Source: Zygaena filipendulae (lineage: Eukaryota > Arthropoda > Insecta > Lepidoptera > Zygaenidae). Taken from it: DNA of 64,000 nt. A program made the position numbers and the translations under genes. Below, piece by piece: positions 1 to 54,104 of this stretch. The stretch's first letter is position 1. Each line of letters begins with the position of its first letter. The notes beneath the pieces were generated by a model that made no database searches, was not told the origin of the DNA, and saw only the letters and a list, made by a program, of their open reading frames with translations. The stretch spans positions 8,462,001 to 8,526,000 of the forward strand of contig OU015649.1 in the NCBI GenBank assembly GCA_907165275.2, in the 5' to 3' direction.

Positions 1-1024
1 TTTTGCGTGCCGTGCGTGCGGTGCGGCCGGCGCGGGCCTGTGGACGCCTAGTCGCCTACCTTAATCTCCCTGTGAAAAACAGCGTGAACATACTCGCGGA
101 TTCTACTCTTTTATTAGTGGGTACCTATAAATAGATAAACATTCTAATCCATAAGTCACAGGTATACCTACGAGTTTCAACTAAAGTTTCGTTTAAACTG
201 TTAAGTTAGAACGACAGTCCCGTGAGTCTCGCACGCAATGATACGCCTGAGTATTAAACCACTTTTTAATACAGTTACGAAAACATTAAACAAAATAATA
301 TGAATAGGTAGGTGCCTAGTCTACCTACTCAATTCATTAGCTTGGGGTAGCTCCTAATTCCTAAAATATTGCAAAGTTTCACTGTCGGCTTTTTATGTGC
401 ACATGAATTGCAATACTTTGAGGATTGATCCAAGACACAAACTACTTAGAGATACTACCGTAGAGATACTATCCAAGACCAAATGAAACGATCATGACTG
501 ATCTGTGGTGGCTGTGGAGTGTGGTCCATCTCGTTATTGAAACGGTAGGTATTTCAAAATTATTGTTAAAATACTACAATCAGTACAAAATGCTGAATTT
601 ATGTTGTGTAGGTACCTACCTACTTATACCTCTTGCAAATAATAAGGTTGCAACTTTTAATCTATGGCAAATACCTAGGTTATTAAAACATTAAGCAGGT
701 CAATAACAAAAGTAACTTTTATTTTTTTAATAGTAATTAATTTGGTATAATACCTAAGTTTTAAATGATTGAGGAAATTCATTGATGACAAAAGATCTAC
801 CTACTTAAACTGAAACTAACTTATAAGGAAAGTCAACCACTTTTGGGGATTTAGGTACAGGTGAAAAAGCATAGAATTTGCCAATTTTTATCAAAATAAT
901 GCTTTTCAGATTCACATTTTAAAAATAACCATAATATAGAACATACACTTGAACAGTTTTGAGAAAATCTTACAGCTGAATCAAATGTCTATCACTAATA
1001 TTCTATGTATTCTTACAAACTATG
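1..1024. other. Intergenic stretch, no gene recognised
   Basis: The first 60 bases are unusually GC-rich for the window; the rest is AT-rich. No reading frame resembles a known protein. A block near 260-300 (TTTTAATACAGTTACGAAAA) recurs near 41,860, so part of this is repeat-derived. A small insertion with 8-bp direct repeats lies at 428-478. The 3' end of MED11 (minus strand) should extend into the right part, but no clear AATAAA was found. Confidence 0.5.
428..478. mobile_element. Micro-insertion: 35 bp between 8-bp repeats ATCCAAGA
   Basis: ATCCAAGA occurs at 428-435 and 471-478. The 35 bases between begin CACAAACTACTTAGAGATAC and contain a second AGAGATACT. The same CACAAACTACTTAGAGATAC block occurs at 44,810, so the insert is a repeated sequence and not a chance pair of octamers. 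Confidence 0.7.
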
Positions 1025-1545
1025 TCATGTACTAGTGCTCGAAGAGGTCATGCTACCATTTGCTGCCCCAGCCTGTGTTGGGCCAGATCTGTTGGTGACT
1101 GCCAAGTGAGAAGCTTTAAGGCGATCTAATTCATTTATCCAAGAGCGGACATGTTCCAACCTATGCCAAGCCATCTGCAAGACCTTCTGTGATGCATATC
1201 CAGAGCCTTCATGAGGTTGTCCAGTGGAAACTTGAGTCAGATAGTTGATCTGATCACATAATTTAGATTCTACCTGACTCAGAGTTCTCAAAAATTGAGA
1301 AGTGTTGGATTCAGTTTGCTTTTGATTTGATTTCTCCTTACTTAAATCCAATAGTACTTGAGCTATAAAACAAAATAATCAAAACAGGAACAATTTTCAA
1401 TATTAAAGCAAAAATTATGGTAAGAGTAGGTAATACCTATACAGAAAAATTTCAAAAAGCGTAGATTACCTGCACATTGTAAACAAGTGATAATATCTTT
1501 TTCAATATCTTCAAGAACCTGAATTCTTTCCATAGGGCCAGCCAT
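1025..1545 (-). CDS. MED11: Mediator complex subunit 11
   Basis: MED11 is a small helical subunit of the Mediator head module that pairs with MED22 and links activators to RNA polymerase II. Two exons on the minus strand: 1545-1470 and 1362-1025, joined by a GT-AG intron, give 137 residues. The N-terminal block MAGPMERIQVLEDIEKDIIT and the second-exon block INYLTQVSTGQPHEGSGYAS, followed by KVLQMAWHRLEHVRS, are hallmarks of the family. The start is the ATG at 1545: the frame stays open upstream to 1566, but no other ATG lies there. The last ~25 residues are Ser/Thr-rich, as in other insects. Nine bases upstream of the ATG lies a micro-insertion (1554-1590), so the 5' UTR has been altered by a mobile sequence. 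Family assignment is firm. Confidence 0.95.
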
Positions 1546-1553
1546 TTCTTCCA

Positions 1554-1590
1554 GAGAGGAGCACAAATTAACTAGAAATATGGAGAGGAG
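1554..1590. mobile_element. Micro-insertion: 21 bp between 8-bp repeats GAGAGGAG, in MED11 leader
   Basis: GAGAGGAG at 1554-1561 and 1583-1590 flank a 21-base insert at 1562-1582 that begins CACAAATTAACTAGAAATA. It is the same type as the inserts at 1812-1832 and, reversed, 49871-49891. It sits 9 bases upstream of the MED11 start codon, most likely in the 5' UTR. Confidence 0.75.
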
Positions 1591-1613
1591 GTAATCTCTG
1601 GTAATCCCTGGAG

Positions 1614-1656
1614 GTAATCACCAAAGATCATATAATCACTACGTTTTAGTAATCAC
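1614..1656. mobile_element. Micro-insertion: 27 bp between 8-bp repeats GTAATCAC
   Basis: GTAATCAC at 1614-1621 and 1649-1656 flank 27 bases containing GATCATATAATCACTACG, closely related to the insert at 44843-44866. The flanking octamer itself resembles part of the insert family, so nested or repeated events are possible and this case is less certain. Confidence 0.5.
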
Positions 1657-1803
1657 AGATCACTACGTATTTCTTCAAATAAATAACCGTAATGCTGGTG
1701 GGGAATTGGGGATTGCATTGTATTTTTTTTTTAATCAGAATTCAGGTAGGGAGCTGGTGGCACAGACGATTAAGAGAACATCCCTCAGATTAACTAGACA
1801 TAT

Positions 1804-1840
1804 GTCTAAAGCACAAATTAATTAGACTTATGGTCTAAAG
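1804..1840. mobile_element. Micro-insertion: 21 bp between 8-bp repeats GTCTAAAG
   Basis: GTCTAAAG at 1804-1811 and 1833-1840 flank a 21-base insert (1812-1832) beginning CACAAATTAATTAGACTTA. Directly left (1784-1803) is another member of the family, CTCAG-ATTAACTAGACAT, so insertions have stacked here about 250 bp upstream of MED11. Confidence 0.75.
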
Positions 1841-2045
1841 ACAGATAGGAATCTGACAGTGTTCTGAGGGGTCGTTAGAGATCCACCAATCACAAGGCGA
1901 GGACGGACCCACAGATAAAAAATATTAGTGTTGTCCATATAAATAGATTGTCGATACTAGGGATGTGAATTAGTAATCACATCGATAGTTTATAGCTCAT
2001 TAGGATCAATATTAAATTTTTTTTAGGGGAATAACAGAACTGATC

Positions 2046-2112
2046 TGTTTATGTTTTTCTCTAAACATTTTGACGAACTAATTTACGTAGTGCTTAGAGA
2101 AAAACATAAACA
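2046..2112. repeat. Perfect 19-bp inverted repeat, 29-bp spacer
   Basis: TGTTTATGTTTTTCTCTAA (2046-2064) is mirrored exactly at 2094-2112. It lies about 480 bp beyond the stop codon of the P-type transposase gene. Drosophila P elements carry internal inverted repeats near their ends, so this could be a subterminal transposase-binding repeat; that is inference, because no element terminus was identified. Confidence 0.5.
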
Positions 2113-2594
2113 AGAACAAATAAAAGTTTGCAATTCAAAATAAGCTTTTTTATTTATCTTAAATTAAGTAGGTACATAAAAATGTTACTTTACATGTGTG
2201 TAATATTTTTACATGTAAATATTTGAACACAGTTAATAGTAAAATACAATAAATAATTTGACAATTTACAGTGAAATATAAAAATTAACAATTTTTATTT
2301 AGAAAGTAAAATCAGGAAAAATTGTGACATAACACTGCAAAGCAAGACACGCCAGACATAACTGTGGAACAAAAATTATTTGTATATTACATCACAAAAT
2401 TATTAATTGGCGTAAATCCACTAATGCGTCTGTCATACATAAACAGATGTGTCGTTGTGTAAATATATACGTGACACCAAAATAACTTACTATAATTTAG
2501 AAGTTCTAATATTCAACTTTTTCGAAGTCGCACCAACCTCGAACACAGGTTCAGCCTGAAACACAGTAAAAAAAAAAGAGACTAGATATTCCGA

Positions 2595-5500
2595 TCATTT
2601 CTTTGCCCTAGAGCCCCTAGAAGACTTGTATTTTTTAAGTGCCAAATTATGAAATTTGAAAGTCAAATTGGGCGATGATTCGTTGTAAGAACCTTTTAAA
2701 ATTTTATTCACAGTATTGCAAAAATTATGAACTTGAATTCTACAAGACCATCTAATGAAAAGATCTAAGACATCTTTGTGATGTGCAGCACAACCGAGCC
2801 ATTCGACATTTGTAGTTTTCAGAAATTCGGATCTAATAGTTTTTGTTACATTTGGTCGGTGAGCATAGTTATCTAGATAATTATTGCAAGTTTTTATTAA
2901 ATCACGGAAAACTGAAACAAACTTCGAATTTGGGTAACTTACCGCCGCACTCAGAGTCGTTCATTAAAATAACGTTAATCGGCCCATAACTAATGCTACT
3001 TAAAACCTCTAGTGACAATTAAATCGCCGTAGCTCCCAGAGACAAAAATTTAATGTTGATTAGTAGATTGACAACTATATGTAAGCATAGGGCGGTACAC
3101 CCTATCGAAATGCGTATCGATAAAGTGCGACATTGCCACATGCATAAACTCATGGAAATGATACTTTTGTTTTTGTAGTTTTTATGAGGTGAAGTTATTA
3201 TTTTTCTTTAGAAATAATTAATTGCGTTAATTTACTATTACTTTAATCGGAAATAATAATTGATTTCAATAAAATTAAATCGTGAATGCCATGACTTTTG
3301 TGATATGACAACATTGAACGCCGCCATTTTCATTTTTCAATTATCTACGTCAAATCAGTCCGCGAAATTTTTCAAATTGGAATAGCCGCCACTATTAAAG
3401 GTCTGTCCACATTCGCGCGAGAACCGCGCGCCAAGCCGCGAAACACCCGCGAACCATGATTGTACACTTATAGTTAGCGGGTGTTTCGCGGCTTCGCGCG
3501 CGAACTACGCGCGAATGTGGAGAGCGCTTGAAGTAGAAGAAGGAGAATTCGTCTTTAGTTATATAATAATAATTTGAAATTATTGTATAAAAAATGGTGA
3601 GTATTAATTAATTATTATTGGTTTCATATTGTTAAAAGATAAAAATATGTTAGGCATGTATTTATATGGTTTTCTTTATATTTCAGGAGCAAAATAAAAC
3701 ACAAAGCAAATGAGTTGCAAACTTTACCCCGGACGAAAAATTTTTACTTGCACACTCAGAGAGTTTTTATTTCGTCTGAGCTTGCACATTAATTAAACAT
3801 CGATAATTGAATCAAAACTGATCGACGGAAAGTCAGTTTTAAAGAAAAAATGGCCTGGATTTCAGTCACTGACGAGTTCAATAGTAATGTACTTGTATAC
3901 AAGGTATTGTATTACTTGTATATACTTGTATTCTAGTTATTGCTTGTATACACTTTTTGTTAATATAACTAGAACTAATTATATTTTTTTTACTTGCAGC
4001 GTGATGTAACTACATTAAAAAGAGCATGGGATAACCTTAAGGCTATGGCCCGTAAAAGCAAGGCTATCTTTTAAAAACTGGAGGTGGACCATCAAATCCA
4101 CCACCTCAACCGAAGCATAATAAGCATTATAGAAAAGGTAACATTCAGTAACAACTCAACAGGGCTGGGCAAAATACCAAGTTGTAATTGAAATCCTTTT
4201 ATTATAAATGTGAAACTTAGTTTGTTTATTTTTACGTTTTCACGCCTTAATGGCTTAACCGATCAACATGAAATTTTGCATACACATTTTCACCGGTACA
4301 GAGAAAAACATAGGGTACTTTTTATCTGGGAATTCCTGCGGGATCTTTGAGATTTCCACAGGTGAATCTCTGAAACGGTTGAACTTATTTGAACGGAACT
4401 TTCTCTGCTAATTAAATGATGTTATAAGGTGTAAATTATGCTACTTTGAAGTTCTTACGGAAATTCAGAAACTCAAACGGGTGGAATCGCAGGGCATAGC
4501 TAATGTGTGTTATAATATGTATTCTAAAATATGTAGTTCTAATCAGTGTATTTTTTTTAGTTGAAGACATTAAAAACAAGCTGCTGAGAGAGCTGCTGAG
4601 TTGGAGGAAGAAAAAAATTATTGTAGATGGCAAAACTAGAGCTAGCTGAATTAAAAAAAAAACTAGAATTACAATAATAAAATTATTTATTTTAAATGAA
4701 CTAGTTTTATATTATTTATTTAAAATTCAGGCAGATATTTGAAGCAGCTAATAGGTGCCTGTATCCAGTTATACATTACTATTTTTCTATCTTTTGTTTC
4801 AAATATTTGTCCAATCTGTTTTCAAATAATAATTGTTAGGTGCCAAGACTTCTTCCGGTAGTCCATTCCAAGGTGCAACCACTCTGTTAGCAAAAATTGT
4901 TATTACCTACACCTTAAAAAAACAAACAAACAAAACAAACTTAAACAAACAAAATCTCAGTATAACCAATTCTTTTTTTATTATTTTATGGTTTTTAATC
5001 TATACATTTATATATATAAATAAAATTGAAGTGTCTGTTTGTGATTCCAAATTAACAATTTTTCACTAAATGCATATGAAAGTATAATATAATCCTACTA
5101 ATATTATAAATGTGAAAGTATGGATGTTTGGATGTTTAGATGTTTGGATGTTTGTTACTCAATCACGCAAAAACAGTATAAAGCAGGAGTTCATCTAATG
5201 GTAATGAGATATTGTATAATGTAGCACACACACAAATTACAACCACAACTGTGTCTAATTTGATACTCATACTCACTTGAAGATATGGAAACTTCCTTTT
5301 CCCAATACTAAAAACTCTCAACAGTATTTTTCGTTTTGATTACTGATATGGCTTTTATTGTACTTTTCTTGACTGTTTGAATTAGGACAAGAATGGTGTT
5401 AAACGCACATCATTTACCTACTGCATAATCACTCACCAAGCAGTATACCTTGCAATACACCTGATAGCTGTTTCAGTGCACTACTATTATGAATAAAACT

Positions 5501-8500
5501 ATCATGAGTTCCGCCAGGCCATCGAGCTACAACTTAAAAAAATCCAAATTCGGACCTGTTACTGCCTGAACATTAAAAGAAAACCATCCTTTTCTATGAT
5601 ATTCTATCAGGACTTCTTATTTTAATATGTGTACCCGATGACACCTGGAAGTCCAGCAATTCGTAAACTCAATAAAATCTTCTAGGTCAGACATGCTTTT
5701 CTAATTACTGTGTCGTGATCGACGCCCTGAAAGTTTCAAAAATCCAATTTTGGTTTTGAAATTTTAATAACAAAAACAAACATAACCTTACTTTTCAATG
5801 TCAAAAATCTCCAATTAAGTCTTAAGTAAGGGTCAGCCGTCACTTAAAGTTAATCATCATTAAACGTGATTAATGGAGGATTAACTGTCTCTGAGAGTGA
5901 ATTTTTTTTAATCCTTACTTAAAATCCGTTAAGTAACCATTAAATCGACTCTGAGTGCGGCGGTAAGATTTCGGCCTTTTAAAGAAGGTCTTTCCCGCTC
6001 TGATATCCAAGTGTGAATATCAGACGGATTTTGAGAAAGGAAAGTTTGTTTACATTGATGGCACTTAAATTTGGCTACAAGTCTTCGAGAGACGAAACCT
6101 GCGGTGTATGCAGAAGCATGCACGTTGGTTTTTTCCATTCGCGCCTGGCGGAACAGCTGAGAGGCTGTTCCGCCAGGCGTGACTGGAGAGTGGGGGTGCT
6201 CCACTCTTCGAGGCGCCTCTTGTAGACACGTGCTTTCTTCTGCTGCTGTCGACGGCTGGGATGCTATATCTGAAAAAGAAAAAATCTGTGCAGAATCATG
6301 GCTCTTATTTAAAGTTAATAATAATCTACCCATATCATCCTCGCAATTAGAGTAAGGTGAGTGAGGACCTAAAAAATTTGTAATTAATAAAGATTTGAAT
6401 GAGCATATGAAGGTATGCGCATCAGGGTTATTGTTCCTGTGGTTGATTGCTCTAATGCGACCAAAAAAATTTTCCAAAGGATCTTGGTTTAAATTGCGCG
6501 TATAAAAGAAAGAAACGTCAAAATTTTGAAGATATGACCAAATATCTATGAAGCTTTTAAGGGTTATTATCCAGTTTTTTAAAGAAGGAACATGTTTAAT
6601 ATTTCCGGAATTAGAATCTTTATAATGTGTATTTTCTAACACCCTGATAGCATCCTTCCAAAATGCAACATGCTTAGACTCCCCCTTTACTAGTTTCACC
6701 GGGCCTCTCAGCTTTCCGGGCGAGGAGCTGTTCCGCGATCCGTTGACGCTGTCGAATAGTCGGTCGAAGAACAGCACTGCTTCCGCCGTGTCCCGCATAC
6801 TCTTCGATACAGGTCGACCATCTGCGTGCGTTTCTGTAATAAAAAATACATTGCAAAATATAAATTTCTCACACGTTGCATCGTGTACACTAAATATATT
6901 CAATATTTAAGCAGTACAACTACACTATTTTGATCTTCTTGTTAAATATAATATTTATTAATTATATTTTCTTCCTGTGAATCGATTGCGACACAAGTCT
7001 ATACATATAATACACTATGTACAGATGTTGATCGATAGACAACGCAACAGGCAAAAAACTTGACATTTTGCACAAGGCGCCTTTTAAAATAAAAGGTGCA
7101 AAACGTGAAATGAGGGTGAATTATTGTAATTTAACCAGGCATAAATGGACTTAAACTTGGGATTAATTTTGCGCAGTTTATTTTCTGAATTGATTTATAT
7201 GAAGTTCTTACCGTATCTTGAAGTATAGTTGAGCATGGCGCTGGTGCGCTCCGATAAGGTCTGTGTGCAATGTTTCACACTCATTTTTTTAATTTTCTCC
7301 GGAATGACATGTTCGTCTGATAGTTTGTGGAGCATCCGAATATCTCCTAGCTGACAATCAGCTTTATATACCTCCATTATGTCAGACCATTTAGCTGTCT
7401 TCCCATTGAAAATTAAATCTTTGTTCAAAAAGTTATTTCGTATTCCCTTGATTAAGTGTGGTGGGTCAAAAATTATATACATTGCATGACCGTTGATGTT
7501 GATTTCGTTCTCTAAAATAAATTAAAATAAATGTGCAAATATGTATGTATGTAAAGTAAATAATAAATATGATCTTCATTTCAACTTTTTAGTCCAGGTA
7601 CTAGGATACTTATAAATTCCATTGCATGATACACATATAAAGTTACAAACTATTTCTCAATATCAATGTTTTGAGTTCTGCTAATTATGAGACTACCAAT
7701 CCTTGGTGACAAAAGAGTAGTAGTATAAAATATTACTTGTTCCCCGCGGTTTCACTCGCGTTAACTTCGGAGACCTCGCGGGAATTGAGGATAAGAGTAC
7801 TTTATAGCCTTTTGTGTAGCTCTGGCAACGTGTGTACAAAGTTTCATGGTGATCGTTTGAGCCGTTAAGCCGTGAAAGCGTAACAAACAAACAAATTCAA
7901 TGTCACATTTATAATAGTACTAGCTGTCCCCCGCGATTTCATTCGCGGTAATTTCGGAGTTCCCGCGGAGGTTGCAGGAAAAAAGTACTCAATGTCCTTC
8001 AGTTCCCGAGGGAATTCCGGGATAAAAACTATCCTATCTTTTAACTTGGATCATTTTATGAATGGTTACAAAATTTTATCAAAATCCGTTCAGTAGTTTC
8101 GGAGTCCATCGCGGACAAACAACGTGACACGTGATTTATATATATTAGAAGATAATAATATAAGGATACCTTTAGGCTCAGATGCAGCATCATTAAGCAA
8201 TTGCGCTCTCTTGGTGTCCTCCCGAAAGCTTTTAATGCAGCTTTGGAAGGTGGACCCCTGGTCGCAAAGAAGTATTTTAGGAAGTAGCCCCGTCTGTGAC
8301 ACAGCTTCAACCACATTCTGTAATTTAAAAAAATAAACTATTTTATTATAACAGCAGCAGCTGTTCATCGCGTGGGAATTCCGGGTAAAAAGTACCCTAT
8401 GTCTTTCTCTGTACCCCCTGAAAACCTTCCTCATGAATTCATTTATTTATTCAATTATTTTGCACAATATGAAACAAAAGGTGGACTCAATGCCATGGTG

Positions 8501-11500
8501 GCATTCTCTGCCAGTCAACCTTCAAGATCTGCAGAAAGTGAGTTTGGTGGTGGTTGTACAGTCTTAAAAGAGTCATACTAAAACAATTATTACACATAAA
8601 TACTCAAACATAATAGGCATTACGACTAAATTTTATTTTTTTGTCTGTCTTGTAGATTAAAAAGAAAACATTCGACACGTATTTTTCCTTTTTTGACGTG
8701 TTCAAAAAAAAACCGCGATACATTGAGTTGAAATTCCGTATAAAGTCACACACTTTATACTTAGCTATATTTCTATTTTATCTCTTAGTTAGTCCTATTA
8801 CGTCGCAACCTCCCACTCCTAAACTGCAGTTTATCTAAGTATTTTTTCAATATGAAAAAGTAAAAATACATGTCTATTATTATTCTTCTAACTGACGGAC
8901 TAAATAGAATTTTGATTTTTAAACCTTCCTGTCATGCTCATTACCTACACAGCATACTAGTACTACCTATTAATATAAGGTAATATCATATAATTTACTG
9001 TTTAATTTACGCGGTGGAAGACTTTGTTTTATATTATGTAAAGGATTGGATATTTTCATAATGCATTTGTGTTTATAAAACTTACCCGTAAAATACTCTT
9101 CAATTCTGCTGCCGGTGTAGATCCTTCACAGAAATAGAAGGCTATCAACTGGCGCCAGGATGAGATTACTCCTCGCAACATAAAAACCAGTGCGTGGTCA
9201 CACAACTGATACTTATTTTCAGAGCCATAATTAACGAAACCAATAATCTCGTCACTTTTCTCAACAAAAGTCAAATGAGATGCCAACGATATTTCATCAA
9301 AAGTGATGGCACAAATTCTTTTCTTGGCATCCCACGTTTGCACCATTTCCTTTAGTTGAGCAAGTATATTTATATTCAAACCCGGGTTTATGATGAACTC
9401 TTGAGTAAATATGCTCAAAGTCCTACGACTGGGTAAGATGAATAATTTTTGCAGAAGCTTGTATGACTTCGGACTATTTTTAAGAACAGCTAAAGACAGC
9501 AGTTTTTCTTGGATAGAAAAACGCCGTCGTTTAGCGTGCTTGTTGGCGAGAGAAACTTGCATATTAATAAAAGTTTTTCTGTGTGGAGGCAATGATTCAA
9601 TTGCTGATGTAAAAGAATGTTCATGACTCAAGTCTAAGGCTTTCTTTAGTCTTTTCGTGAAAGAAAATTCCAGGCGACGTTTAGATTTGATTATATTTAC
9701 ACATTTCGTGTATATTTTCCTGCAATTGGGAGTTAGATCTGATTGTGATCTAACTATTCTTGCTCTGGATTTAAGTCCTTTTGAGCCTGAAACAAGCAAA
9801 ATCAGTTCATTTTAGGGCAATGAGCACGCACACATGCGCAAAGTGTGTAAACTTTTCAGGATGATTATTGTAACATATGTTTTTAATCGTACATAAATTA
9901 GAACCAACACTAATGACTTACTACTATAATTAAAATGTTTTTTTTTTTTTTAACTTATACAATACCATAAAAGATGCTCAAAAGTTGAGCCAGTTAGAGA
10001 AAAGCGGTAACACAAATAGGCGATGGTGATGGCGGCATCACTACGAAATAAGTAGACTTAACTCTTACCATGTTTCTGAGACACTATCGTAGTTGTCACC
10101 GTCGCTGTTGTTGTCGTTGTCGCCGTCGTTGCCGCCGTCGGTGTTGCCGTCGCCGTCGGTGTTGTCGTCGCCGTCGGTGTTGTCGTCGCCGATGCCGGTG
10201 ACGCGCGCGCCATAACTTCGAGTTGACGTAAGTCTGAAAACAAATTATGATCAAATGTGTATTTATTTAAACTTATATAATGCAATAAAAGCTGCTCAAA
10301 AATTATAGGTTGAGCCATATAGGGATAAGCGGTGACAAAAATATACCACACAATACATATAATATCATCGTTAATGTGTGTATCTAACAGTATATCAATC
10401 AATTAATGCATATTAAACTGTAATTAATTCTGTCGTGGGTAAAAAATATGGCTTGGCTGCCGCACAGTCTCGCTCGCAATACGAATACGTAGACTTAACT
10501 CTTACCATGTTCCTGGGAAACTATCGTAGTTATCGCCGCCACTGTCGCCGTTGTCGCCGTCGCTGTCACCGTCGATGTTGCCGTCGCCGTCGTTATCGTA
10601 GTAGCCGTCGATGTGGCCGTCGCCGGTTCCGGTGCCGTATACGCCAAACATTCGAATCCACTTAAGTCTGAAAAGAAATAATGATCAAATGCTATACGTA
10701 TGTGGCACATAATATATTTGTTGATTGATTTCGATAAAATAAAGTCTATGATTTTAGCTCCCAAAAAAATTCTGCTTATTGTGAAAAAAGATTTTTTCCC
10801 TTCTAGATAGATATTTTTTCTACACTTCACAACACACACATCTACTTGATCCCACAGTAAGCTATTATTAGCTTGTGTCGTTGAATGCAAACGTGGTATA
10901 TATTACATACATATTATACTATAGATACATAAACACACCCAGATTCGAAAGTGGAACCCTGTGTTCATGACACAAAGTGCACCCCCACCGGGAATCGAAC
11001 CTGGAATTGATGAAATCTTGATTAGCGGGCAGGCATGGTGACCTACTACGCCAATCGGGTCATCGTATATTGTGTGTGCAGTGAAATAATCTTCTCTCTA
11101 GTTTCCTATGGGAATTCCGGGATAACAAGTACCTTACGTCATTATCGGTTCATTGTAACTTCCTATAAGTGAAAGAATTTTCAAAATCGGTTCAGTAGAT
11201 CAGAGATTATCCCCTAGAACGTCACAAACTCACAAACTTTTGCTCTTTATAATATTTTTATAGATATATTTACAAAGTAGGTATCATGAATGTTGGATAC
11301 TCAGGTTGGATATAATAGCAAAATTTAACTATATTGGTAGATTGGTGGCAAAAATGTCTGTGGCTGTTGTTTTTTTTTATTGTCTAGGATATCTATGTTT
11401 TAGTCTATGGTAACTGAGTGTTCTTGCGTTCTGTACCGATTACTTGGAATAAATTCGTTTCTAAAGTATTTTCAATTATTATCAACTCATCAACTCCAAT

Positions 11501-13301
11501 AATGAATACACTCTTACTGTGTTCGGAGGGAGCTGCGCTGTGTGAGGGCTGTGCTGTCGTCGTCATTGTAGATCGCGGTGCTGTGAGCAGTGAATAATCA
11601 AGTGACCCTGAAAAATATAATTTACGCATTTGAACATGCACCTTTGTACCTTATGGTCATGCATTGTGACTACTAATATATTGTATATAAAATACATTTC
11701 TATAAAGTCCATTTCTTTTCCTTTTTACATTGATCTAAGTTTTAAAAAGTATATATTATGAAAAATATATATAAATAAGTACCCTATCCTAATTACCAAT
11801 GCCAATTACATTATTTTTACAAATTTTATTTCTAATAATAATAATAAAATTGTTTATTGCCATTAATTTAATTATTATTGCCATTAATAATATTGCTTGT
11901 ATAGATATTTGAATAAATATTGGTTGCTGGTATTTAATATTCTACTTTGAATTTCGGTCTTGATATGATATAATATAATAATTATCTTTTAATTATATTG
12001 ATCTACAAAACTAACTACTTATCAAGAAGTAACTAACACAAACAATCTAATACTACTATTGTACAATAAACTACTAAGAATGGCAAGTTACCACATTCAT
12101 CGAAATAAATTTTTATTCGTTTAGTCTTAGCATAATATCCATGATCATGGACAACATATTGTATTGAAGCCGAACTTTGAGCTGAAAAGCAAAAACATTT
12201 AAACAACTTCTAGAATAGCTAAATCACTCACGAAGTGCGTTAGCGCCATTATCTCAACCATAGTACTTTGTCCCCAAGTTTCAATTATCATAACTTTGTT
12301 TTCTGTGATCTGATTCCAATAAAAACAAAGCTTGCATTTTAGACTATAAAGATGGAGTGACTGTGAAGAATAGTACCTAACTAGTAGTTTGAAAAATAAA
12401 CTCTAAAATACTTAAATTGGACTGCTGGAACGAGAACCTAGTGCAATGAATGTCCTTATGTGATCCCCTAGATGTTCTTAAAAAAACATCTATAAAGTTT
12501 TCTTAATGTACAGAATTACAGGATAGATTAAATGAAGTTTGTGAGAAAATTGATTTAAAGTTACCTGTTAGACTTGTAGTGTCAAGTGGTCTTTTTCGGG
12601 TTACAGCAGCTCTTAGTTCAGGATAAGGGTTCTGTTCATCAAAACCTTCAAACACTGTAAAATTAAAATGATTAAGACGATTATATTATTGTTTTTTATA
12701 TTATTTCGCTACTCATTTGCTATGTAACACTGGAGTTTAGAATAAAAAATTATTAGTATAGCATAGACATAGAACATATTTATTCAGAAAAAGACAACTC
12801 AGAACATAAAACATTTGGCATAAGCAGCATGATACAGCAAAATCTTTACAGAGTTGCTATTACAAGTATCAATCAGAATAAAATAGAATAGAATAGAGGT
12901 TTATATGGTACCAAAATTTAACACAAACTTAATTAATAAGCAATTTTAAAACTGATCAGCTGCCATCACACATTTCCACACCTTTTTTTAATATCATATC
13001 ACTTTAGAAACTTACCAATACTAATAGGCTTTGAGGGCTTGCCAACCCTTATTTCTTCTTGTGTAAAAAGTGTTGGAATAGCATTCACCATTCGCCTCCC
13101 AAATTTTTTAAAAATATTTTCAAAATGCAGTTCACATATTCTTTGGGAAATCCTTTTAACACCACTGATTTTAATGCCAGGAAATTTACTAGCTAGAATA
13201 TCATGCCAAGCATCTGCCAAACGATTGTCCGTAGGGAAACGATGTAATTTATTGTTGCCCTTGGATGGACAGTTAGGGATCAGGCAGTTTTTGTAGGGCA
13301 T
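2595..13301 (-). CDS. THAP-domain P-element-type transposase, last exon interrupted
   Basis: Ten coding exons join in one frame: 13301-13016, 12654-12565, 12181-12092, 11607-11518, 10667-10506, 10233-10069, 9786-9086, 8317-8170, 7511-7212, and 6833-5964 continuing at 2938-2595 after a Harbinger insert. Without the insert the product is 1081 residues. Exon 1 is a THAP zinc finger (C-x4-C, CELH, AIPTLF). Exon 7 has the P-transposase core with FDEISLASHL (Asp about 458) and DHALVFMLRG; exon 8 has LLCDQGSTFQ (Asp about 547); exon 9 DPPHLIKGIRNNFL; exon 10 RNLNQDPLENFFGRIR (Glu about 798). The C-terminus keeps the family pattern LGCAAHHKDVLDLF ... FCNTVNKILKG. A GTGAGT donor at 13691 and an acceptor before the ATG suggest a 5' UTR exon ending at 13692. 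No other stop or frameshift was found. It could be a P-superfamily transposon or a THAP9-like domesticated gene; terminal repeats were not located. Confidence 0.88.
3401..3530. repeat. GC-rich palindromic MITE nested in Harbinger relic
   Basis: GTCCACATTCGCGCG near 3405 is mirrored by CGCGCGAATGTGGA near 3510, with further mirrored GCCGCGAAACACCCGC blocks inside, so the unit can fold on itself. A related half-unit lies at 58,801-58,860 (GCGGGTGTTTC ... AATGTGGAGAGC). Confidence 0.6.
4194..4370 (+). mobile_element. HINE (Helitron-like) fragment
   Basis: Starts TCCTTTTATTATAAATGTGA after an A, as HINEs do, and carries the shared core (GGTACAGAGAAAAACATAGG, GGGAATTCCTGCGGG). The CTAG end is lost. 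Confidence 0.6.
5093..5185 (+). mobile_element. HINE 5' fragment
   Basis: Starts TCCTACTAATATTATAAATG, the 5' end of the family, followed by GGATGTTTGGATG repeats and CTCAATCACGCAAAAA; the rest is missing. Confidence 0.55.
7735..7919 (-). mobile_element. HINE copy directly abutting a second copy
   Basis: Minus-oriented core (CCCCGCGGTTTCACTCGCG ... CACATTTATAATAGTA). It ends exactly where the next HINE (7920) begins, giving a head-to-tail pair of two different subtypes in intron 8 of the P-type transposase. Confidence 0.6.
7920..8152 (-). mobile_element. Full-length HINE, CTAG end to TC end
   Basis: On the plus strand it starts CTAGCTGTCCCCCGCG and ends in GA before a T, so on its own strand it runs TC...CTAG between host A and T. 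The CCGCGATTTCATTCGCGG stretch forms the hairpin expected just inside a Helitron 3' end. It lies in intron 8 of the transposase gene, close to exon 8. Confidence 0.75.
10030..10690 (-). repeat. Tandem duplication of a transposase exon
   Basis: Two units of about 430 bp, each with one exon (10069-10233 and 10506-10667) plus matching intron edges: GTAGACTTAACTCTTACCAT before and AAGTCTGAAAA beyond. Both exons encode Thr/Ala-rich linkers ending TTIVSQ(K/E)HG and both keep phase 1 on each side, so either or both can be spliced without a frame change. The interiors are trinucleotide-repeat-like (ACG/GCG), which may have promoted unequal exchange. Confidence 0.8.
10808..11066 (-). mobile_element. 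tRNA-derived SINE (Metulj-like) in transposase intron
   Basis: Read on the minus strand it opens with a tRNA-like head: A-box TGGCGTAGTAGGT (11053-11041) and B-box GGTTCGATTCC (11001-10991). The body follows, with TCTGGGTGTGTTTATG and ACAAGCTAATAATAGCTTAC, then TGTGGGATCAAGTAGATG. This order and wording match the lepidopteran Metulj-type SINEs. 3' fragments recur near 22,545-22,600 and 39,553-39,600. It lies in the intron between exons 4 and 5 of the P-type transposase. Confidence 0.75.
11096..11262 (-). mobile_element. Degraded HINE copy
   Basis: Core words GGGAATTCCGGGATAACAAG, AAAATCGGTTCAGTAGAT and CACAAACTCACAAACTTTT mark an old minus-oriented copy next to the SINE in the same intron. 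Confidence 0.5.
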
Positions 13302-20060: not shown

Positions 20061-20155
20061 CCCACAGACGAATAAGAGAACATATCTCAGAAGAATAACT
20101 AAAGCACTGTTATTGCTACTGTAGTGATTACCTTCTACTGTTATTGGCTACTGTT

Positions 20156-20337
20156 ATTGTTCTGAGACAGCAACCAAACAACCTGAGAAACAACCATCTC
20201 CGAAGCAAGTTAATTTTCACTCTGACAGCTATGTATTGTAAGAAGTGTCAAATTTTGCAACAAAAACCGAACTCGTCGAAAAAAAGTTGTAAATCTGTCA
20301 CCAAGCACCTAACGGTGTGTTCCAGCAGCTCCACTTG
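20156..20337 (+). repeat. Partial copy of the GCGTTCCGTGG repeat family
   Basis: ACAACCATCTCCGAAGCAAG, TTTTCACTCTGACAGCTATG and AAACCGAACTCGTCGAAAAA match the inner part of 38348-38820. Micro-insertion-like words (AGTGATTACCTTCT, TACTGTTATTGTTCTGAG) cluster just upstream at 20,107-20,160. Confidence 0.6.
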
Positions 20338-20798: not shown

Positions 20799-21203
20799 TG
20801 TCTATGGGCGGCGGTAATCACTTACCATCAGCAGCCTGACTTTTGACGCAATCGAATTAGGATCAAATCGAAATCAAGTCGTACAGACGTCAAACGGTAC
20901 TCTTGAAAGCACAATTGATCTCGAATCGAAATGAGATCGCAGGATCGTAGTAGAATCAAATTTTGCTACTTTTGAAACTTTGGGATCGCGTCACTATCGA
21001 AGCTGTATCGAATTTATCTGTCAAATTTCTCGATTTCAATATAGGAATAAGTCTAATTAATTTGTGATATAGGAGTCGTGTTGTTGTATTAATTTGTAGT
21101 AGTTTTCGTTTTTGAGTGTCGTGTTGTGTTAATTTGTAGTTTATTACAAAAGAAAACACAAGTATTGTGCTTAACTAAATATTGTGTCGTTGAGTAAGAA
21201 ATA

Positions 21204-25504: not shown

Positions 25505-25833
25505 AAAAGAAATCAATCGGAGTTCTTACGAGCAAAGGGGAGGTGTAGTAACAAAAAGTTTATAATTGGATGTAAAACAGTCTTATTCGCAATGTGAGTT
25601 GAGAGAAAACTAATGGCGCCTGAAATTTCAAATACTTTGAGAGTCTTATTCGCAATGTGAGTTGAGAGAAAACAAATGGCGCCTGAAATTTCAAATACTT
25701 TGAGGTTATAAAAACAACTCGATCGTTCCGTGGCTTGGTTGCAACCTCAGAAGAATATGCTAGTTATTCTTCGGAGGTTGCAACTCAAGCGAGTTTTTTA
25801 ACCGAACAACTATGCCGAAACCCACGGAACGCC
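25505..25833 (+). repeat. GCGTTCCGTGG-family copy with internal 71-bp duplication
   Basis: AAATCAATCGGAGTTCTTAC to AACCCACGGAACGC matches 38348-38820. A 71-bp unit (AGTCTTATTCGCAATGTGAG ... AAATACTTTGAG) is repeated directly at 25,578 and 25,640. The micro-insertion at 25738-25784 lies inside. Confidence 0.7.
25738..25784. mobile_element. Micro-insertion: 31-bp palindrome between 8-bp repeats GTTGCAAC
   Basis: GTTGCAAC at 25738-25745 and 25777-25784 flank CTCAGAAGAATA-(TGCTAG)-TTATTCTTCGGAG, an imperfect palindrome of 31 bp. The related repeat copy has a single GTTGCAAC at 38757-38764 and no insert: a clean empty site. Confidence 0.85.
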
Positions 25834-28665: not shown

Positions 28666-29370
28666 AAACAAGGCTCAACAAGGAGGCACTGCGAAGTAAA
28701 TCATTTACTTTCCCAAATAGGTTATTTAATTTTGACATAAAATGTAAATGTAATTTTTAAAGAGGAAATAAATATCTATCTATCTAATAACATCATCATC
28801 ATGACAAACTAAAATATTGGAATAATAATAAATAAATAAAAATAATAATTTATTGTTTCAATTTTACGACAAATGTTTTCCCCCGTTGTAGATTTAATTC
28901 ACCTGGTATGAAGCCCACGATGCTCTAATGATAATTTATCGATATCGATTTAATCAGGAACTACATGTGGCCATCCCTATTGTTCTCGTTAATGTTGGTA
29001 CCCATGAGTTATGAAGTATTTTGACATTTAAATTTTCGCTGTGTTGGTATTGCTGGGTCTGCTAAATGGATTCCAAAACCAAGTAAGGAAGTCCCGTCTC
29101 TTAAAACGTAGTGATTACCTTCTCTCTGGTAGTGATTACCTTCTCTCTGGATACAGTTAGTGAGGGTAGGTATGTTATAACACAGAGCGGATGTTGAGGA
29201 AGGCAATTATTTTGTAGTACTAACTATATAATAGTATACATTACATATAATATACACTAATAGCACACTCATAAATATAAATTGTTAGCCTCTATAAATT
29301 TTGCTAGTGTTTTTACAAATGGGGAAAAAGAGAGGGTAAGGAGGTAAGGAGGCTATAATTTTATTCAAAG

Positions 29371-29422
29371 CTGGCCCCCTCAGAACAATAACATGCTACT
29401 GTTATTGTTCTGAGCTGGCCCC
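29371..29422. mobile_element. Micro-insertion: 36-bp palindrome between 8-bp repeats CTGGCCCC
   Basis: CTGGCCCC at 29371-29378 and 29415-29422 flank a near-perfect palindrome: CTCAGAACAATAACA, six central bases, TGTTATTGTTCTGAG. The same arm (CTCAGAACAATAACAGTAG) recurs alone at 45,891 and reversed at 20,140. Confidence 0.88.
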
Positions 29423-37862: not shown

Positions 37863-37864
37863 TA

Positions 37865-44663: not shown

Positions 44664-44960
44664 CTTTATTTATCAGTTCTTCGGTAATTAGATAAAACCA
44701 CGAGAAACGAGCAAGGCAAGCACACAAAAAGGCTGCCTTTATTGTGTGTTAATTTTTAATAAAGGTACCACGTTATTTTTAACTCCTTGTGTTTAACACA
44801 AATTAACCACAAACTACTTAGAGATACTACTGAAATGAAATTCACAGATCATTTAATCACTACGTGATGAAATTAACCACTGAGCAAATAATCACTAGTG
44901 ACCACAAATTAACAAAATAACTAGACTTATGTCTAGTCACCACAGAGATACTATTTTTTT
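44664..44960. promoter_or_regulatory. NUFIP1 upstream region, dense in micro-insertion words
   Basis: This is the expected promoter/5' UTR side of NUFIP1. It contains CACAAATTAAC, CACAAACTACTTAGAGATAC (shared with 436), CACAGATCATTTAATCACTA and ACTAGACTTATGTCTAGT in a row. At least one (44835-44874) has exact 8-bp flanks; another candidate is TAGTGACC/TAGTCACC around 44,917-44,945. No TATA box was identified. Confidence 0.5.
44835..44874. mobile_element. Micro-insertion: 24 bp between 8-bp repeats ATGAAATT
   Basis: ATGAAATT at 44835-44842 and 44867-44874 flank 24 bases beginning CACAGATCATTTAATCACTA. It lies about 170 bp upstream of the NUFIP1 start codon. A longer direct repeat, AAATTAACCAC, at 44,804 and 44,870 suggests an enclosing earlier event. 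Confidence 0.7.
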
Positions 44961-45310: not shown

Positions 45311-45350
45311 AGTGCGCTAACGTAGTGATTACCTTCTCTCTGAGTGCGCT
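45311..45350. mobile_element. Micro-insertion: 24 bp between 8-bp repeats AGTGCGCT
   Basis: AGTGCGCT at 45311-45318 and 45343-45350 flank 24 bases containing GTAGTGATTACCTTCTCTCT. The paralogue has a single AGCGCGCT at 38393-38400. The same insert word occurs at 20,122, 29,108 (twice in tandem) and 49751. Confidence 0.85.
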
Positions 45351-45720
45351 CTGAGGCGCGTTCCGTGGATTCGCACGAGTGCACTCGAAAGTCGAACGTC
45401 CGTGGGTTTGGGCGGTTGTTCGGTTAAAATTTCACTCGTTTGAGTTGCAACCAAGCCACAGAGCGATCGAGTTGTTTTTATAACCACAAAATATTTGAAA
45501 TTTCAGGCGCCATTTGTTTTTTCTCAACTCACATTGCAAATAAGACTATTTTTCATCAAATTATAAACTTATTTTAACTACGACACCTCCCCTTTGTTCT
45601 TAAGAACTCTGATTGATTTCTTTTTCGACGAATCCGGTTTTTGGCGCAAACTTTGACACTTTCTCAAACAGTGCATAGCTGTCAGAGTGAAAATTAACTT
45701 GCTTCGGAGATGGTTGTTTG

Positions 45721-45759
45721 GTTGCTGCCTCAGAAGAATTATTCTTCTGAGGTTGCTGC
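45721..45759. mobile_element. Micro-insertion: 23-bp palindrome between 8-bp repeats GTTGCTGC
   Basis: GTTGCTGC at 45721-45728 and 45752-45759 flank CTCAGAAGAAT-T-ATTCTTCTGAG, a perfect palindrome around one base. The empty paralogue is GCAGCAAC at 38481-38488 (opposite strand). Confidence 0.9.
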
Positions 45760-46364
45760 ACTCTGAGCCGTGAAACTATGCTCTGACAGCTGTCGGAGTA
45801 AAATTTAACCAAGCCACAGAACGGGTATCGAGCGCGCTCGAGTTCATTCGTGCGAATCCACGGAACGCGCCTTAGGTGTGTAGCGTGTAACCTCAGAACA
45901 ATAACAGTAGAAGTAACTTCCATGCTAGAAGGTGCCTTACGACATTTGAGAGTGTAAAGCTAGTGATGTGACTATGCATAAAATAAATACCGATATCGAC
46001 TTTTTAGTTTACACTTTATGGTATCAGTTCATTAGGGGGGAAATCTTCATCATTTATGTAAGCATATTTTTGATAAATTGCTTTATGAGAAATTATATTA
46101 TCAAAGATGGCGCGCTATTTAGTTGAACGTAACGCCTTAAAAATTGGACAAAGAAATAAATCAAAATATGCTAAGGTGAAATAAAGAACTCACTTCTGTC
46201 TGATCAACTCATTTATTTATAAACACAGGATAAATTATTCACAAATTGATATACATTGTGACGAGCATAAATTGTTTAGAAACTATATTAAAGTTAATGA
46301 ATCGTGATATTTCACGATTATTGAGTATCCGATGACCATCAAAAGTCAAAAGTCAAAATCATTT

Positions 46365-46801
46365 ACTAAAATGGGGAAGAAAACGCAAAGCCTACAAGCA
46401 GAGGGCGCTGTGTGTTTGTTACCTGTCAAAACACTTTTAAAACAACTGATTATTGCCTTTTTGAATTTCTAAGAACTAGTTCAGCTTTGTTGTGTCTTTA
46501 AATTAGTTTTGTGATGATTTGTATGTTCTAGACGTGGTCTCACAATCAGTTTCTTTAAAATGTTTCGTACCTAACCTCAAAAAATCCCTTGATTTATTTA
46601 TCACTCTTTCCTTAATATTTAATCACTTGGGAATTGGTGTATACCTATTTCCTCACAACCAAAAGCTACAACAGCGTCCCATAATTAATTTAACTAGTGA
46701 AAACAACAAAAATATACTCAGTTTCTATCTAGATTGACAGATCTTGTGTAACAAACATTTGGCGCCCTCTAGGTTGGAACTAATTGACAGTTTTCTACCC
46801 C
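46365..46801. repeat. Uninterrupted copy of the 14646 repeat
   Basis: Reverse-oriented match to 14646-15059 plus 19465-19480, running GGGGAAGAAAACGCAAAGCC to GACAGTTTTCTACCCC. It supplies the empty site for the 4.4-kb hAT element (TGCTTGTAGGCTTTGCG on the reverse strand). Confidence 0.75.
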
Positions 46802-49448: not shown

Positions 49449-49811
49449 AGAGCAATGCCACACGGGCGTTGCAGCTGCGCTGCGTCGTCGCGCCGCGATG
49501 ATTTCAACGCAGTGAATGCCACATGAGCGCTGCGTCGACGCTGCGTCAACGTATTCAATATGCTAATAAATACTGCGCTGCCGCTCCGTCGTTTCAACGC
49601 AGCTCCCTTCCCCACCTCGTCTCTCACCTCTCCTTGTACGTTGCGCTTGCGTTGCGTCGCCTTCTGTCATTTCAACGCATCGTGTGGCATGTCGTTCAGA
49701 TTTGTATGTAGAACAACGGAGTGTCACCGCTCAGTCGACGTAGCGCTAACGTGATTACCTTCTCTGTGGCGCTAACGCAACGCACAGACAACGCCCGTGT
49801 GGCATCGCTCT
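49449..49811. mobile_element. GC-rich MITE upstream of the BAP18-like gene
   Basis: AGAGCAATGCCACACGGGCG is mirrored by CGCCCGTGTGGCATCGCTCT across 363 bp. The interior is unusually GC-rich, with repeated CAACGCA and GCTGCGTCG words. TCGTA on both sides is a possible target duplication. A micro-insertion (49743) lies inside. Confidence 0.75.
49743..49776. mobile_element. Micro-insertion: 18 bp between 8-bp repeats GCGCTAAC
   Basis: GCGCTAAC at 49743-49750 and 49769-49776 flank GTGATTACCTTCTCTGTG. The insert belongs to the AGTGATTACCTTCTCTCTG type and entered a MITE. Confidence 0.85.
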
Positions 49812-49863
49812 GTCGTAACTATCGTTTGTAACTTTGTATTAAAAAAAAAAAAACTTTGTATTT

Positions 49864-49929
49864 GTTTGGACATATGTCTAGTTAATTTGTGGTTTGGAGA
49901 CATATGTCTAGTTAATTTGTGTTGGAGAC
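49864..49929. mobile_element. Two stacked micro-insertions in the BAP18 promoter region
   Basis: The first insert is 49871-49891 between GTTTGGA repeats (49864-49870, 49892-49898). The second is 49902-49921 between TTGGAGAC repeats (49894-49901, 49922-49929), so it entered the duplication made by the first. Both inserts contain ATATGTCTAGTTAATTTGTG, the reverse of the MED11-side inserts. A third diverged copy (ATAAGTCAAGTTAATTTGTG) follows at 49,942. They lie 80-140 bp upstream of the BAP18 start codon. Confidence 0.8.
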
Positions 49930-50006
49930 GAATCTTTAGACATAAGTCAAGTTAATTTGTGATTTTAGCTAGGCTTTTGAGTTTTGTCGTTAATTTGTGT
50001 AAAAGA

Positions 50007-52370: not shown

Positions 52371-52454
52371 CAGCAATACTTGATATTGTGTAATTGATTA
52401 GCTTAAATACAACTACTATAATAGTTGTAGGACTCACCCAACAGCTCAACCTAA

Positions 52455-53168
52455 CTAAATGCATGTGAAACTCATTATTTTTCTGTTCCATGAAGATTTT
52501 TGTGATTCATACAGTTTGTTATGTGTTTTTTCTGATAATATATTTTCAATAACAACTTCTATATCACTTCTGATTTTCAAAGATTCATAAAACGGGAATG
52601 TGTTGCCAGATTTTTTCATTCTTCGTTGTGCATTTCGGTAACAGTTCCATGGCTGTGGCTCTATTACTAGTGACTCTGAAATAGACTTTAGATATTTAAG
52701 GAAAGCTAATAAACCATCATCACCATTATTAAGATGAATCCACATTGTTACTGAAAAACAAAATGTTATGTCAAAACTTTCTTTTTTGTGTGAATCCAAG
52801 TATTTTCTTATATTTTCCTTTCCAAAGTCTGTCATTATATCTAGTGTGAGGAATGTTATGTTACAGTTACAATGCGTCTCTTTTGCTCTTTCTATTAGGG
52901 ATGGGTCAATATCAATTGCCACAATTTGAATGTTGCATTTACCATAAATAAGCTTCAAGTAGTCATACAGCTCAACTGTAAGTTCACCAGTGTTACATCC
53001 AATATCCAAACAAACTAGTAATTCATTTTTGGTTAATTGTGGAAACATTAGTGGATTAAGAATTTTTATTCTATCCTTTGCACTGTTAAATGAATAGTAG
53101 TTAATGAAGTTTCCATGTTTGACAGCACCAGGGTTATCTCCAATGAAATTAAGCTCCTCAGATCTCAT
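52455..53168 (-). CDS. BCDIN3D: BCDIN3D-type RNA 5'-monophosphate methyltransferase
   Basis: BCDIN3D is a cytoplasmic SAM-dependent O-methyltransferase of the Bin3 family that methylates the 5'-monophosphate of tRNA-His and, reportedly, of some pre-miRNAs. The 237-residue frame is intronless. It has FGNF-like HGNFINYYSF (18-27), SAM motif I CLDIGCNTGELT (53-64), motif II AIDIDPSLIERA (84-95), the Bin3-domain block FCFSVTMWIHLNNGDDGL (136-153) and LVIEPQPWNCYRNAQRRMKK (167-186). Length is slightly below the human protein. A TTGCAG 10 bases upstream of the ATG could be an acceptor for a 5' UTR intron. The stop lies 84 bp from the BAP18-like stop on the other strand, so the two 3' UTRs probably overlap. 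Confidence 0.95.
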   Translation of the reverse strand: MRSEELNFIGDNPGAVKHGNFINYYSFNSAKDRIKILNPLMFPQLTKNELLVCLDIGCNTGELTVELYDYLKLIYGKCNIQIVAIDIDPSLIERAKETHCNCNITFLTLDIMTDFGKENIRKYLDSHKKESFDITFCFSVTMWIHLNNGDDGLLAFLKYLKSISESLVIEPQPWNCYRNAQRRMKKSGNTFPFYESLKIRSDIEVVIENILSEKTHNKLYESQKSSWNRKIMSFTCI

Positions 53169-54070
53169 ACTGCTGATGCTGCAAAGATAATAATTTTATT
53201 AGTATTCTTGTTCTCTTTAAGTGAATATTTAAATAGGGCATATTAAATTCATAAAAAAATTACGTACCTACCTACATAGGTAGTTGAAAGTAAACATAGA
53301 AGGTTGAGTAAGATCCGTGGAAGTGGTATTACCAAGAGCCTGAGCTTACCTATGAAAAAGGACAATACCTAAGTACCTAATTATAATGTAGGTAAGTCGA
53401 TCAATAGAAATAGCTATTGTCATATTAATTTTATTATAATAAGTGTTATAAAAAAATTTCCAACGTTTTTTATGCTAAGTATTTAGAATGCTGAGTGTTC
53501 TACAAGCCAGCATGCGGAGGGTTCTAAGTAATACAGTATTTTGTACTGAGGATAAGTGCTACAGTTTTGTAAAAAACCATTAATAAGTAATTCTCAATAG
53601 TTCTCAATAGTACCTCCCTACACTTTCCAAAAGTATCAACGTAGGTACCTATATAATAGATAGATATTTTATTCTCTTTAAAAATTACATTTAAATTTTA
53701 TATCAAAAGAAATAAATTCACTAAGGAGATTGTCAATATGTTAAAAAAAAGAAATCATAATATATCAGAAAATTAATGTCAAGTAGAAACATTTATTAGT
53801 AGTAGGTAATAGGTAGGTAGGTACTTACTTATTGCTGCTATAAATGATCTGTGAAGTGTTTATTTATTATATCTAACGTCGCTAATCGCTATTACGTTCG
53901 CCAATCGCCATAAGTTTTGGTAGGTCTCAAAAAGTTATAACAATACAATCCAGGATGTGATATTCCTCTAAAAATAAGAACAATACGGAACCCCGAGCAC
54001 GAGTTTTATCTTGCTCGTCTTTCGAGTTTGTTTCGAGAATCGAGACAATCGAGTCGGACTAGACTGGTGG
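53169..54070. other. Upstream of BCDIN3D, no other gene recognised
   Basis: Should contain the BCDIN3D promoter. About 53,655-53,720 (AGATATTTTATTCTCTTTAA, AAATTACATTTAAATTTTAT) is the reverse of 28,735-28,795, a retroposon-like 3' tail. Short TAGGTAGGTA runs are scattered around 53,270 and 53,810. Confidence 0.4.
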
Positions 54071-54104
54071 ATTTCGAACTCGGTTATTCTTCTGAGGTTT
54101 CGAA
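54071..54104. mobile_element. Micro-insertion: 18 bp between octamers ATTTCGAA / GTTTCGAA
   Basis: CTCGGTTATTCTTCTGAG lies between 54071-54078 and 54097-54104, which match at 7 of 8 bases. The insert is a shortened form of the CTCAGAAGAATAA palindrome type. Confidence 0.65.

Follow-up and report, generated by a model that had tools for sequence, protein, structure and literature searches.

Octamer-flanked short insertions in Zygaena filipendulae as probable excision scars of P-superfamily transposons

Tiny inserts and a P-type transposase gene in the window

The window analysed here is a 64,000-nucleotide stretch of the Zygaena filipendulae genome (assembly GCA_907165275.2, contig OU015649.1, forward-strand positions 8,462,001 to 8,526,000). 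It holds a P-type transposase gene and a population of tiny insertions, most of which are flanked by 8-bp direct repeats (octamers). An initial annotation had listed at least 13 such inserts, mostly with exact 8-bp flanks, and had proposed that they are scars of several P-superfamily families. When the window sequence was re-read, the tiny insert was present at 13 of the 13 sites; 11 are flanked by exact octamers and two (49864 and 54071) match at 7 of 8 positions, as had been described. The inserts are built from a few recurrent sequences, here called arms. Arm A comprises a 3' arm, CTCAGAACAATAACAGTAGC, and a 5' partner, CTCAGAAGAATAACTAAAGC; the other arms are B (CAGAGAGAAGGTAATCACTACG), C (CACAGATCATTTAATCACTACG), D (CACAAATTAACTAGACATATG), D2 (CACAAACTACTTAGAGATACTAC) and E (CACAGACGAATAAGAGAACAT). 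The inserts of the window are as follows, entries called scars being putative.

428..478, plus strand: D2-type scar, 35 bp between ATCCAAGA octamers; a 23-nt arm, then 12 nt, 10 nt of these arm-copied
1554..1590, plus strand: D one-arm scar, 21 bp; octamer GAGAGGAG
1614..1656, plus strand: C-type insert, 27 bp; octamer GTAATCAC
1804..1840, plus strand: D insert, 21 bp, within the 3' terminus of the P element; octamer GTCTAAAG
3747..3788, plus strand: A-like insert, 26 bp, not listed by the initial annotation; ends CTCAGA..TCTGAG; octamer CTTGCACA
20086..20166, plus strand: composite A insert; 5' arm of 22 nt, 39-nt middle, 3' arm of 20 nt
20176..20195, minus strand: minimal 4-bp scar, previously unlisted; GGTTGTTT CTCA GGTTGTTT, read by eye
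21039..21074, minus strand: D one-arm scar, previously unlisted, 20 bp (21047-21066); octamer TCCTATAT
25738..25784, plus strand: A scar, 31 bp; octamer GTTGCAAC
29371..29422, plus strand: A scar, 36 bp, with two arms of 15 + 22 nt; octamer CTGGCCCC
44835..44874, plus strand: C-type scar, 24 bp; octamer ATGAAATT
45311..45350, minus strand: B one-arm scar, 24 bp; octamer AGTGCGCT
45721..45759, plus strand: A scar, a 23-bp palindrome; octamer GTTGCTGC
49743..49776, minus strand: B one-arm scar, 18 bp; octamer GCGCTAAC
49864..49899, minus strand: D one-arm scar, 20-21 bp; exact flank of 7 bp (7/8)
49894..49929, minus strand: D one-arm scar, 20 bp; octamer TTGGAGAC
54071..54104, minus strand: A scar, 18 bp, made of a 14-nt 5' arm, 1 nt and a 3-nt right arm; octamer 7/8

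Paralogous repeat copies display the corresponding empty sites. Five paralogues of the repeat that contains the 25738 insert lack the insert and have one exact octamer each, and four paralogues lack the 45721 insert, two of them with an exact octamer and two with a diverged one. Paralogues of the minimal scar at 20176..20195 hold a single octamer, as judged by eye. L019 and the 29371 insert were also tried as empty-site cases and left uncounted, since their partial paralogues aligned poorly. The octamer of the 1614 insert, GTAATCAC, also belongs to the B/C arm motif, and this insert is possibly nested. The middle of the composite insert at 20086..20166 consists of copied arm pieces and one B piece; an octamer around it was looked for and not found.

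The transposase gene lies on the minus strand and belongs to an element whose tail and 3' terminus were also located.

13017..13301, minus strand: P transposase exon, THAP domain PF05485 (E 2.2e-10)
9059..9811, minus strand: P transposase exon, TNP-like RNase H N-terminal domain PF21787 (E 1.6e-23)
7198..7521, minus strand: P transposase exon, TNP-like GTP-binding insertion domain PF21788 (E 4.2e-10)
5932..6906, minus strand: P transposase exon, TNP-like RNase H C-terminal domain PF21789 (E 7.3e-07)
2598..2960, minus strand: probably the final coding piece of this transposase gene; Pfam gave no match above the cut-off
1868..2399, plus strand: P element tail
1784..1811, plus strand: 3' terminus of the window P element, CTCAGATTAACTAGACATATGTCTAAAG; the flanks of the C14 and C1:12.12M copies differ beyond this point

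The gene thus combines a THAP domain with an RNase H fold that carries a GTP-binding insertion domain, features of the P superfamily, and its 9059..9811 piece matches the Drosophila P transposase 6p5a (E 1.3e-06). The probable last coding piece is separated from the remaining exons by an insertion of ∼3 kb (2938-5967), which has 22-bp inverted ends (CTTACCGCCGCACTCAGAGTCG at 2938-2959, inverted at 5946-5967) and apparently interrupts the gene in its 3' coding part; no direct duplication around it was seen by eye. Genome-wide, PF21787 gave 59 matches, some of which are pieces of one copy and several of which lie in open frames of ∼900 codons. Five of the eight matching copies fetched (L028-L031 and L033) form one P-type family with a common 5' terminus, CTTAGATAAATGATTGG, their flanks diverging there. 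These copies lie at C5:9197665, C10:4369175, C7:84429, C21:5296880 and C3:10024250; four have ∼900-codon frames and one a shorter frame, and pairs on different chromosomes are 99% identical. L028 has matches to five P-transposase domains and hits 6p5a at 4e-25.

Arm copies, octamers and joins across the genome

Searches were made in the same assembly (366 Mb, 56 contigs). The 20-nt arm A has 177 exact copies genome-wide and the 21-nt arm D has 351, and the reversed control of each has 0. Within the window and a further 200 kb, the octamer preceding an arm recurs exactly 10-60 nt on in 22 of 52 arm rows, against 174 of 20,000 random positions (0.87%). These 22 rows represent 18 distinct loci, four palindromic A inserts being counted twice; among the 18, one is a tandem unit of arm B and another repeats the 1804 structure at L004. 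Octamers matching at 7 of 8 positions followed 3 of the 52 rows, which is not above chance. The arms for this test were taken from the inserts themselves, with seeds of 13-20 nt that are blind to shorter retained arms, and the independent octamer test is therefore the genome-wide sample.

For that sample, A sites were chosen by the exact 20-mer and D sites by the exact 21-mer among the first 100 matches listed, a choice that misses shorter arms and later contigs. The octamer is repeated at 8/8 in 12 of 20 A sites and at 7/8 in 3 of 20. The 22 D arms came from 20 regions, six of which had been chosen for close opposite-strand pairs; the octamer is repeated at 8/8 for seven of these arms and at 7/8 for six, and one further case was discounted as lying inside the arm. 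At L058, one of the seven, the octamer coincides with a D motif. Chance at these offsets gives 8/8 at 309 of 20,000 positions (1.5%) and 7/8 at 2,176 of 20,000 (10.9%), so that exact octamers stand far above chance for both arms.

A scan that used no arm sequence covered 264 kb for octamer-flanked segments of 14-45 bp. Ends of the form CT..AG were found in 8 rows (0.6 in shuffled sequence) and CA..TG ends in 7 (0.5 shuffled). All end types together gave 506 against 207 shuffled, tandem repeats making up part of this excess. A general excess of 8-bp repeats (79 against 33) was discarded as evidence because it includes tandem repeats.

The inserts of arm A measure 21 (two sites), 31, 32, 33 (seven sites), 45, 62, 65 and 109 bp, the 33-bp inserts comprising five identical sites and two variants. 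The identical 33-mer, CTCAGAACAATAACAGTAGCATATTCTTCTGAG, is a right arm of 22-23 nt joined to a left arm across two shared bases; it occurs at 5 of the 20 sampled A sites with five different octamers (three exact, two at 7/8). Other A joins show 1-2 nt overlaps, blunt joins, short fillers or long fillers copied from the arms. In four long fillers the longest arm match is 12, 10, 15 and 10 nt, lengths equalled in 2, 0, 0 and 0 of 1,000 shuffles. Longer composites are L040 (109 bp), L044 (62 bp), L055 (65 bp) and w20086 (81 bp). Palindromes and arm-arm scars of the kind first described do exist; many inserts, however, are a single arm that stops exactly at the octamer. In these one-arm inserts the outer end is constant and the inner boundary varies (19-29 nt for D, 18-24 nt for B, 24-27 nt for C).

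Retained lengths were measured in 16 chosen A inserts, five sites identical to two of these and the 109-bp L040 being excluded. The longer A arm is 20-23 nt in 11 of the 16 and longer in none. The A 3' reference extends to 32 nt, so the ceiling of 22-23 nt is genuine for that arm; the 5' reference is just 22 nt long and the 5' ceiling is not independent of it, the two scars with the longest 5' arms diverging after 22 nt. D arms end mainly at 19-22 nt, with further cases at 24, 25, 28, 29 and 29 nt. The initial annotation had given a P-type cut 17 nt into the inverted repeats, which fits poorly with arms that reach 20-29 nt. The lengths suggest a cut deeper than 17 nt, perhaps varying by family, and the longer D stubs could reflect partial gap repair.

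Long copies and the transposase element

Longer elements that share termini with the inserts, as excision scars would call for, were found for both D (14 exact long copies) and A (4). A genome search with window positions 1868-2250 returned at least 40 D-type tail copies (40 of 81 candidates were scored and all counted), and A-type long tails number at least 27 (40 of 1,798 candidates scored). A separate search of 264 kb for elements of 44-4,000 bp with exact octamers and similar ends gave 26 rows, none with these termini. Three D pairs (C2:5736501/5737291, C4:7272625/7272726 and C4:7318761/7320908) resembled full-length elements by their coordinates and were rejected, since on reading they look like separate or nested small inserts; these are opposite-strand pairs, and for two of the three just the ends were read.

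The connection of arm D to the transposase runs through the tail. In the long D copy at C1:5447928, the interior aligns to window positions 1810-2190 (76.6%) and 2314-2399 (75.6%), a region (1810-2399) that lies 3' of the window transposase; this copy has the tail, with no transposase coding within the 1.6 kb read. Among the 14 exact long D copies, at least 8 have such a tail, located 55 bp inward and 74-75% identical to that of the window element (for a minus-strand copy the offset was counted from the outer end of the tail). The two closest relatives of the window gene, C14 (position 7599128) and C1:12.12M (12124825), carry the same tail at 100% and 99% identity. Transposase and tail are spaced by 4.17 kb between start coordinates in both relatives, in the same relative orientation; the spacing in the window is 7.2 kb because of the ∼3-kb insertion. 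For three of the 40 tails a PF21787 match occurs within 15 kb, where 0.19 would be expected (54 of the 59 PF21787 positions were used, the other five being pieces that adjoin them).

All three transposase copies end, read outward, at TCAGATTAACTAGACATAT, and their flanks differ from there. Judged by these sequence comparisons, the window transposase element appears to be a mobile element with a defined terminus. It is the 3' ends of the three copies that were read, and the 8-bp duplication is documented at the scars. Just inside the TCAGATTAACTAGACATAT end, the window copy holds the 1804 insert; the same compound terminus recurs at L004:8606-8657, where L004:8606 repeats the window form, and an altered form is found in the two related transposase copies. 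Arm D and the P element terminus are near-identical over the terminal 16 nt beyond the first six bases. Since the tails in 8 of the 14 long D copies are 74-75% identical to the tail of the P element, arm D is placed, as far as tail and terminus indicate, as the 3' terminus of a family related to the transposase copies and not identical with them.

Family A is represented in the window by one long copy.

45892..46372, plus strand: long A copy consisting of the arm and an A tail; its 45949-46372 part shares 83.9% identity with the C11 long copy

The long copies of family A look non-autonomous, and a missing nearby transposase is expected of such a family.

Excision, repair and alternative explanations

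We consider it highly probable that the inserts were left behind as scars when P-superfamily DNA transposons excised. This origin is supported most directly for arm D, through the sequence of its tail and terminus, whereas B, C, D2 and E would by analogy be the same kind of scar. The earlier proposal of several P-superfamily families therefore survives in part: several families are likely to stand behind the scars, and D alone is tied to a P-type transposase, the A tails compared having none within 15 kb.

In the mechanism that we propose, a P-type element would insert and duplicate 8 bp. On excision, the transposase would cut with a long stagger, such that about the outer 20 nt of each terminus would stay on the flank as a 3' single strand and the flanking 5' end would start exactly at the duplicated octamer. 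If both overhangs were kept and joined via 1-2 nt of microhomology or a copied filler, an arm-arm scar would result. If one overhang were kept and the other lost, the one kept would be joined to the recessed 5' end across the break, giving a one-arm scar of 18-29 bp; one-arm scars would have an exact octamer because that recessed end lies at the octamer. If both overhangs were trimmed, a few bp would remain. We infer the stagger length, the joining steps and the transposase as the cause of the scars.

Known systems provide parallels. After cutting by the Drosophila P transposase, the flanking DNA bears 3' overhangs of 17 nt, and the junctions consist of an octamer, an arm of up to 17 nt, filler or microhomology, an arm and an octamer (PMC2895639). 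The Drosophila P{wa} junctions (PMC2895639 Table 1) resemble the inserts in having the 8-bp duplication on both sides, terminal arms, 2-nt microhomology and copied fillers; they also include a one-arm product (17 bp, three isolates), tiny products and a recurrent product, one 2-nt microhomology junction that makes up 14 isolates. They differ in that arms there are at most 17 nt and arms of 20-29 nt are common here, and in that the present case is natural sequence with hundreds of exact arm copies in a single genome. P elements and P-derived miniature elements (P-MITEs) of Anopheles share 8-bp duplications, a THAP transposase and non-autonomous copies with P ends; in contrast to the scars, elements and MITEs are described there, and the term 'footprint' is absent from that text (PMC1562414). 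The zebrafish Pdre2/THAP9 system has a THAP9-type transposase, an 8-bp duplication and a terminus that begins with CA, and differs in its terminal sequence, its 13-bp inverted repeats and, in the portion available, the lack of a described scar population (PMC10983969). No report of a natural population of P scars was found in the literature searched, as judged by titles and abstract openings.

Several observations weigh against the excision-scar interpretation. Retained arms extend to 22-23 nt (A 3' arm) and 28-29 nt (D), beyond the 17 nt of Drosophila P, and one-arm scars seem much commoner here than in the Drosophila table (PMC2895639). The octamer is absent at 5 of the 20 A sites and 8 of the 22 D arms; among the latter, L064 is a long copy and L059 seems, by eye, to be a composite with an octamer farther out. 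In the window sequence upstream of the THAP exon, no 5' terminus of the P element could be recognised. A second, partial copy of the arm is present in the C14 and C1:12.12M termini, which shows that ends can be compound and that 1804 may be no separate scar; from its sequence context, that insert may be either a scar or an inherited part of the P element end. The initial annotation looked to elements that encode a THAP/P-type transposase as the source of the arms. For D, a D-like end and a related tail were found beside such a gene, the link running via a related tail and not an identical one; for A, none of 27 tails has a PF21787 match within 15 kb (27 of 43 tail rows entered this test, 16 short or partial rows being dropped). 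Finally, six further 10-kb pieces from other chromosomes contained just two weak arm matches, and arm density therefore varies.

Exact arms far outnumber exact long copies (177 against 4 for A, 351 against 14 for D), a difference from the Drosophila case that would suit an alternative which we regard as unlikely, namely that the 18-36-bp inserts are themselves mobile, as ultra-short, cargo-free elements moved by a P-type transposase with a new octamer duplication each time. The identical 33-mer with its five different octamers likewise speaks for mobility and keeps alive the initial annotation's second option, a class of ultra-short elements. That option is disfavoured by the variable inner boundary: one-arm inserts fix just the outer end, and a mobile unit needs two fixed ends. 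The arm-copied fillers resemble repair products. A repeated product need not mean mobility, given that a single Drosophila P junction was recovered from 14 isolates (PMC2895639), and Drosophila P is said to require 138 and 216 bp of end sequence (PMC1562414).

It is similarly improbable that the inserts are products of aborted gap repair, in which post-excision copying from the sister chromatid halts early and leaves short stubs of the element ends. For P, end joining after incomplete synthesis has been described (PMC2895639), the longer composites of 62-109 bp would suit it, and gap repair may account for the D stubs of 28-29 nt. It would be expected to give a broad spread of lengths, yet the longer A arm stops at 20-23 nt in most inserts measured and never beyond. 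A further idea, to which we give little credence, is that P-type transposases here cut ∼21-29 nt inside the termini and that some scars, notably the 33-bp A product, were re-mobilised. If true, excision scars themselves would spread and would be the shortest known transposable units.

The hAT elements make target duplications of similar size, cutting at the element end and leaving footprints of a few bp, and arm B starts with CAGAG, which we take to be loosely hAT-like. Duplications of 8-9 bp are also made by the Mutator-like Muta1, whose excision is mainly precise in the presence of donor duplications and without them leaves predominantly 1-4 bp deletions (PMC5225508). An origin of the inserts from hAT elements, Mutator-like elements or another superfamily that makes 8-bp duplications is nevertheless very improbable, as the inserts, mostly 18-81 bp with arms, fit neither small hAT footprints nor precise Mutator-like excision and the D-type tails belong to a P-type transposase element; no search aimed at hAT or Mutator transposases was made.

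What is known of P excision chemistry and of its repair comes mainly from Drosophila in the laboratory. The present genome alone has hundreds of arm copies, most of the sampled ones in tiny octamer-flanked scars, beside transposase copies whose open frames are long. From such sequence alone it could be possible to read where the cut falls, which end-joining route is taken and how elements turn over, and tiny, usually unannotated insertions may offer a countable record of transposon departures.

Some arm copies occur in other arrangements. Arm E is found at 1761-1781, 20063-20083 and 27198-27214, adjoining CTCAGA-type ends in two places; the context GGGGTACC is common to two of the places, as in composite or nested ends. 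An octamer accompanies only one of four E occurrences, which rules out E as a simple scar throughout. At 29107-29149, a 21-bp B arm is present as a tandem duplicate and continues into CTACGTTTTAAGAG, which may be internal sequence of a long B copy. The sequence TGACGTCA flanks a 36-37 bp CTAACC...GAATAG sequence at L007:9241, L012:8245 and L017:9358 and is, with it, probably part of a longer repeat. Copies of arms D, D2 and C cluster within 100-150 bp at 49864-49961 and 44797-44950, as if the inserts or their surroundings were preferred targets.

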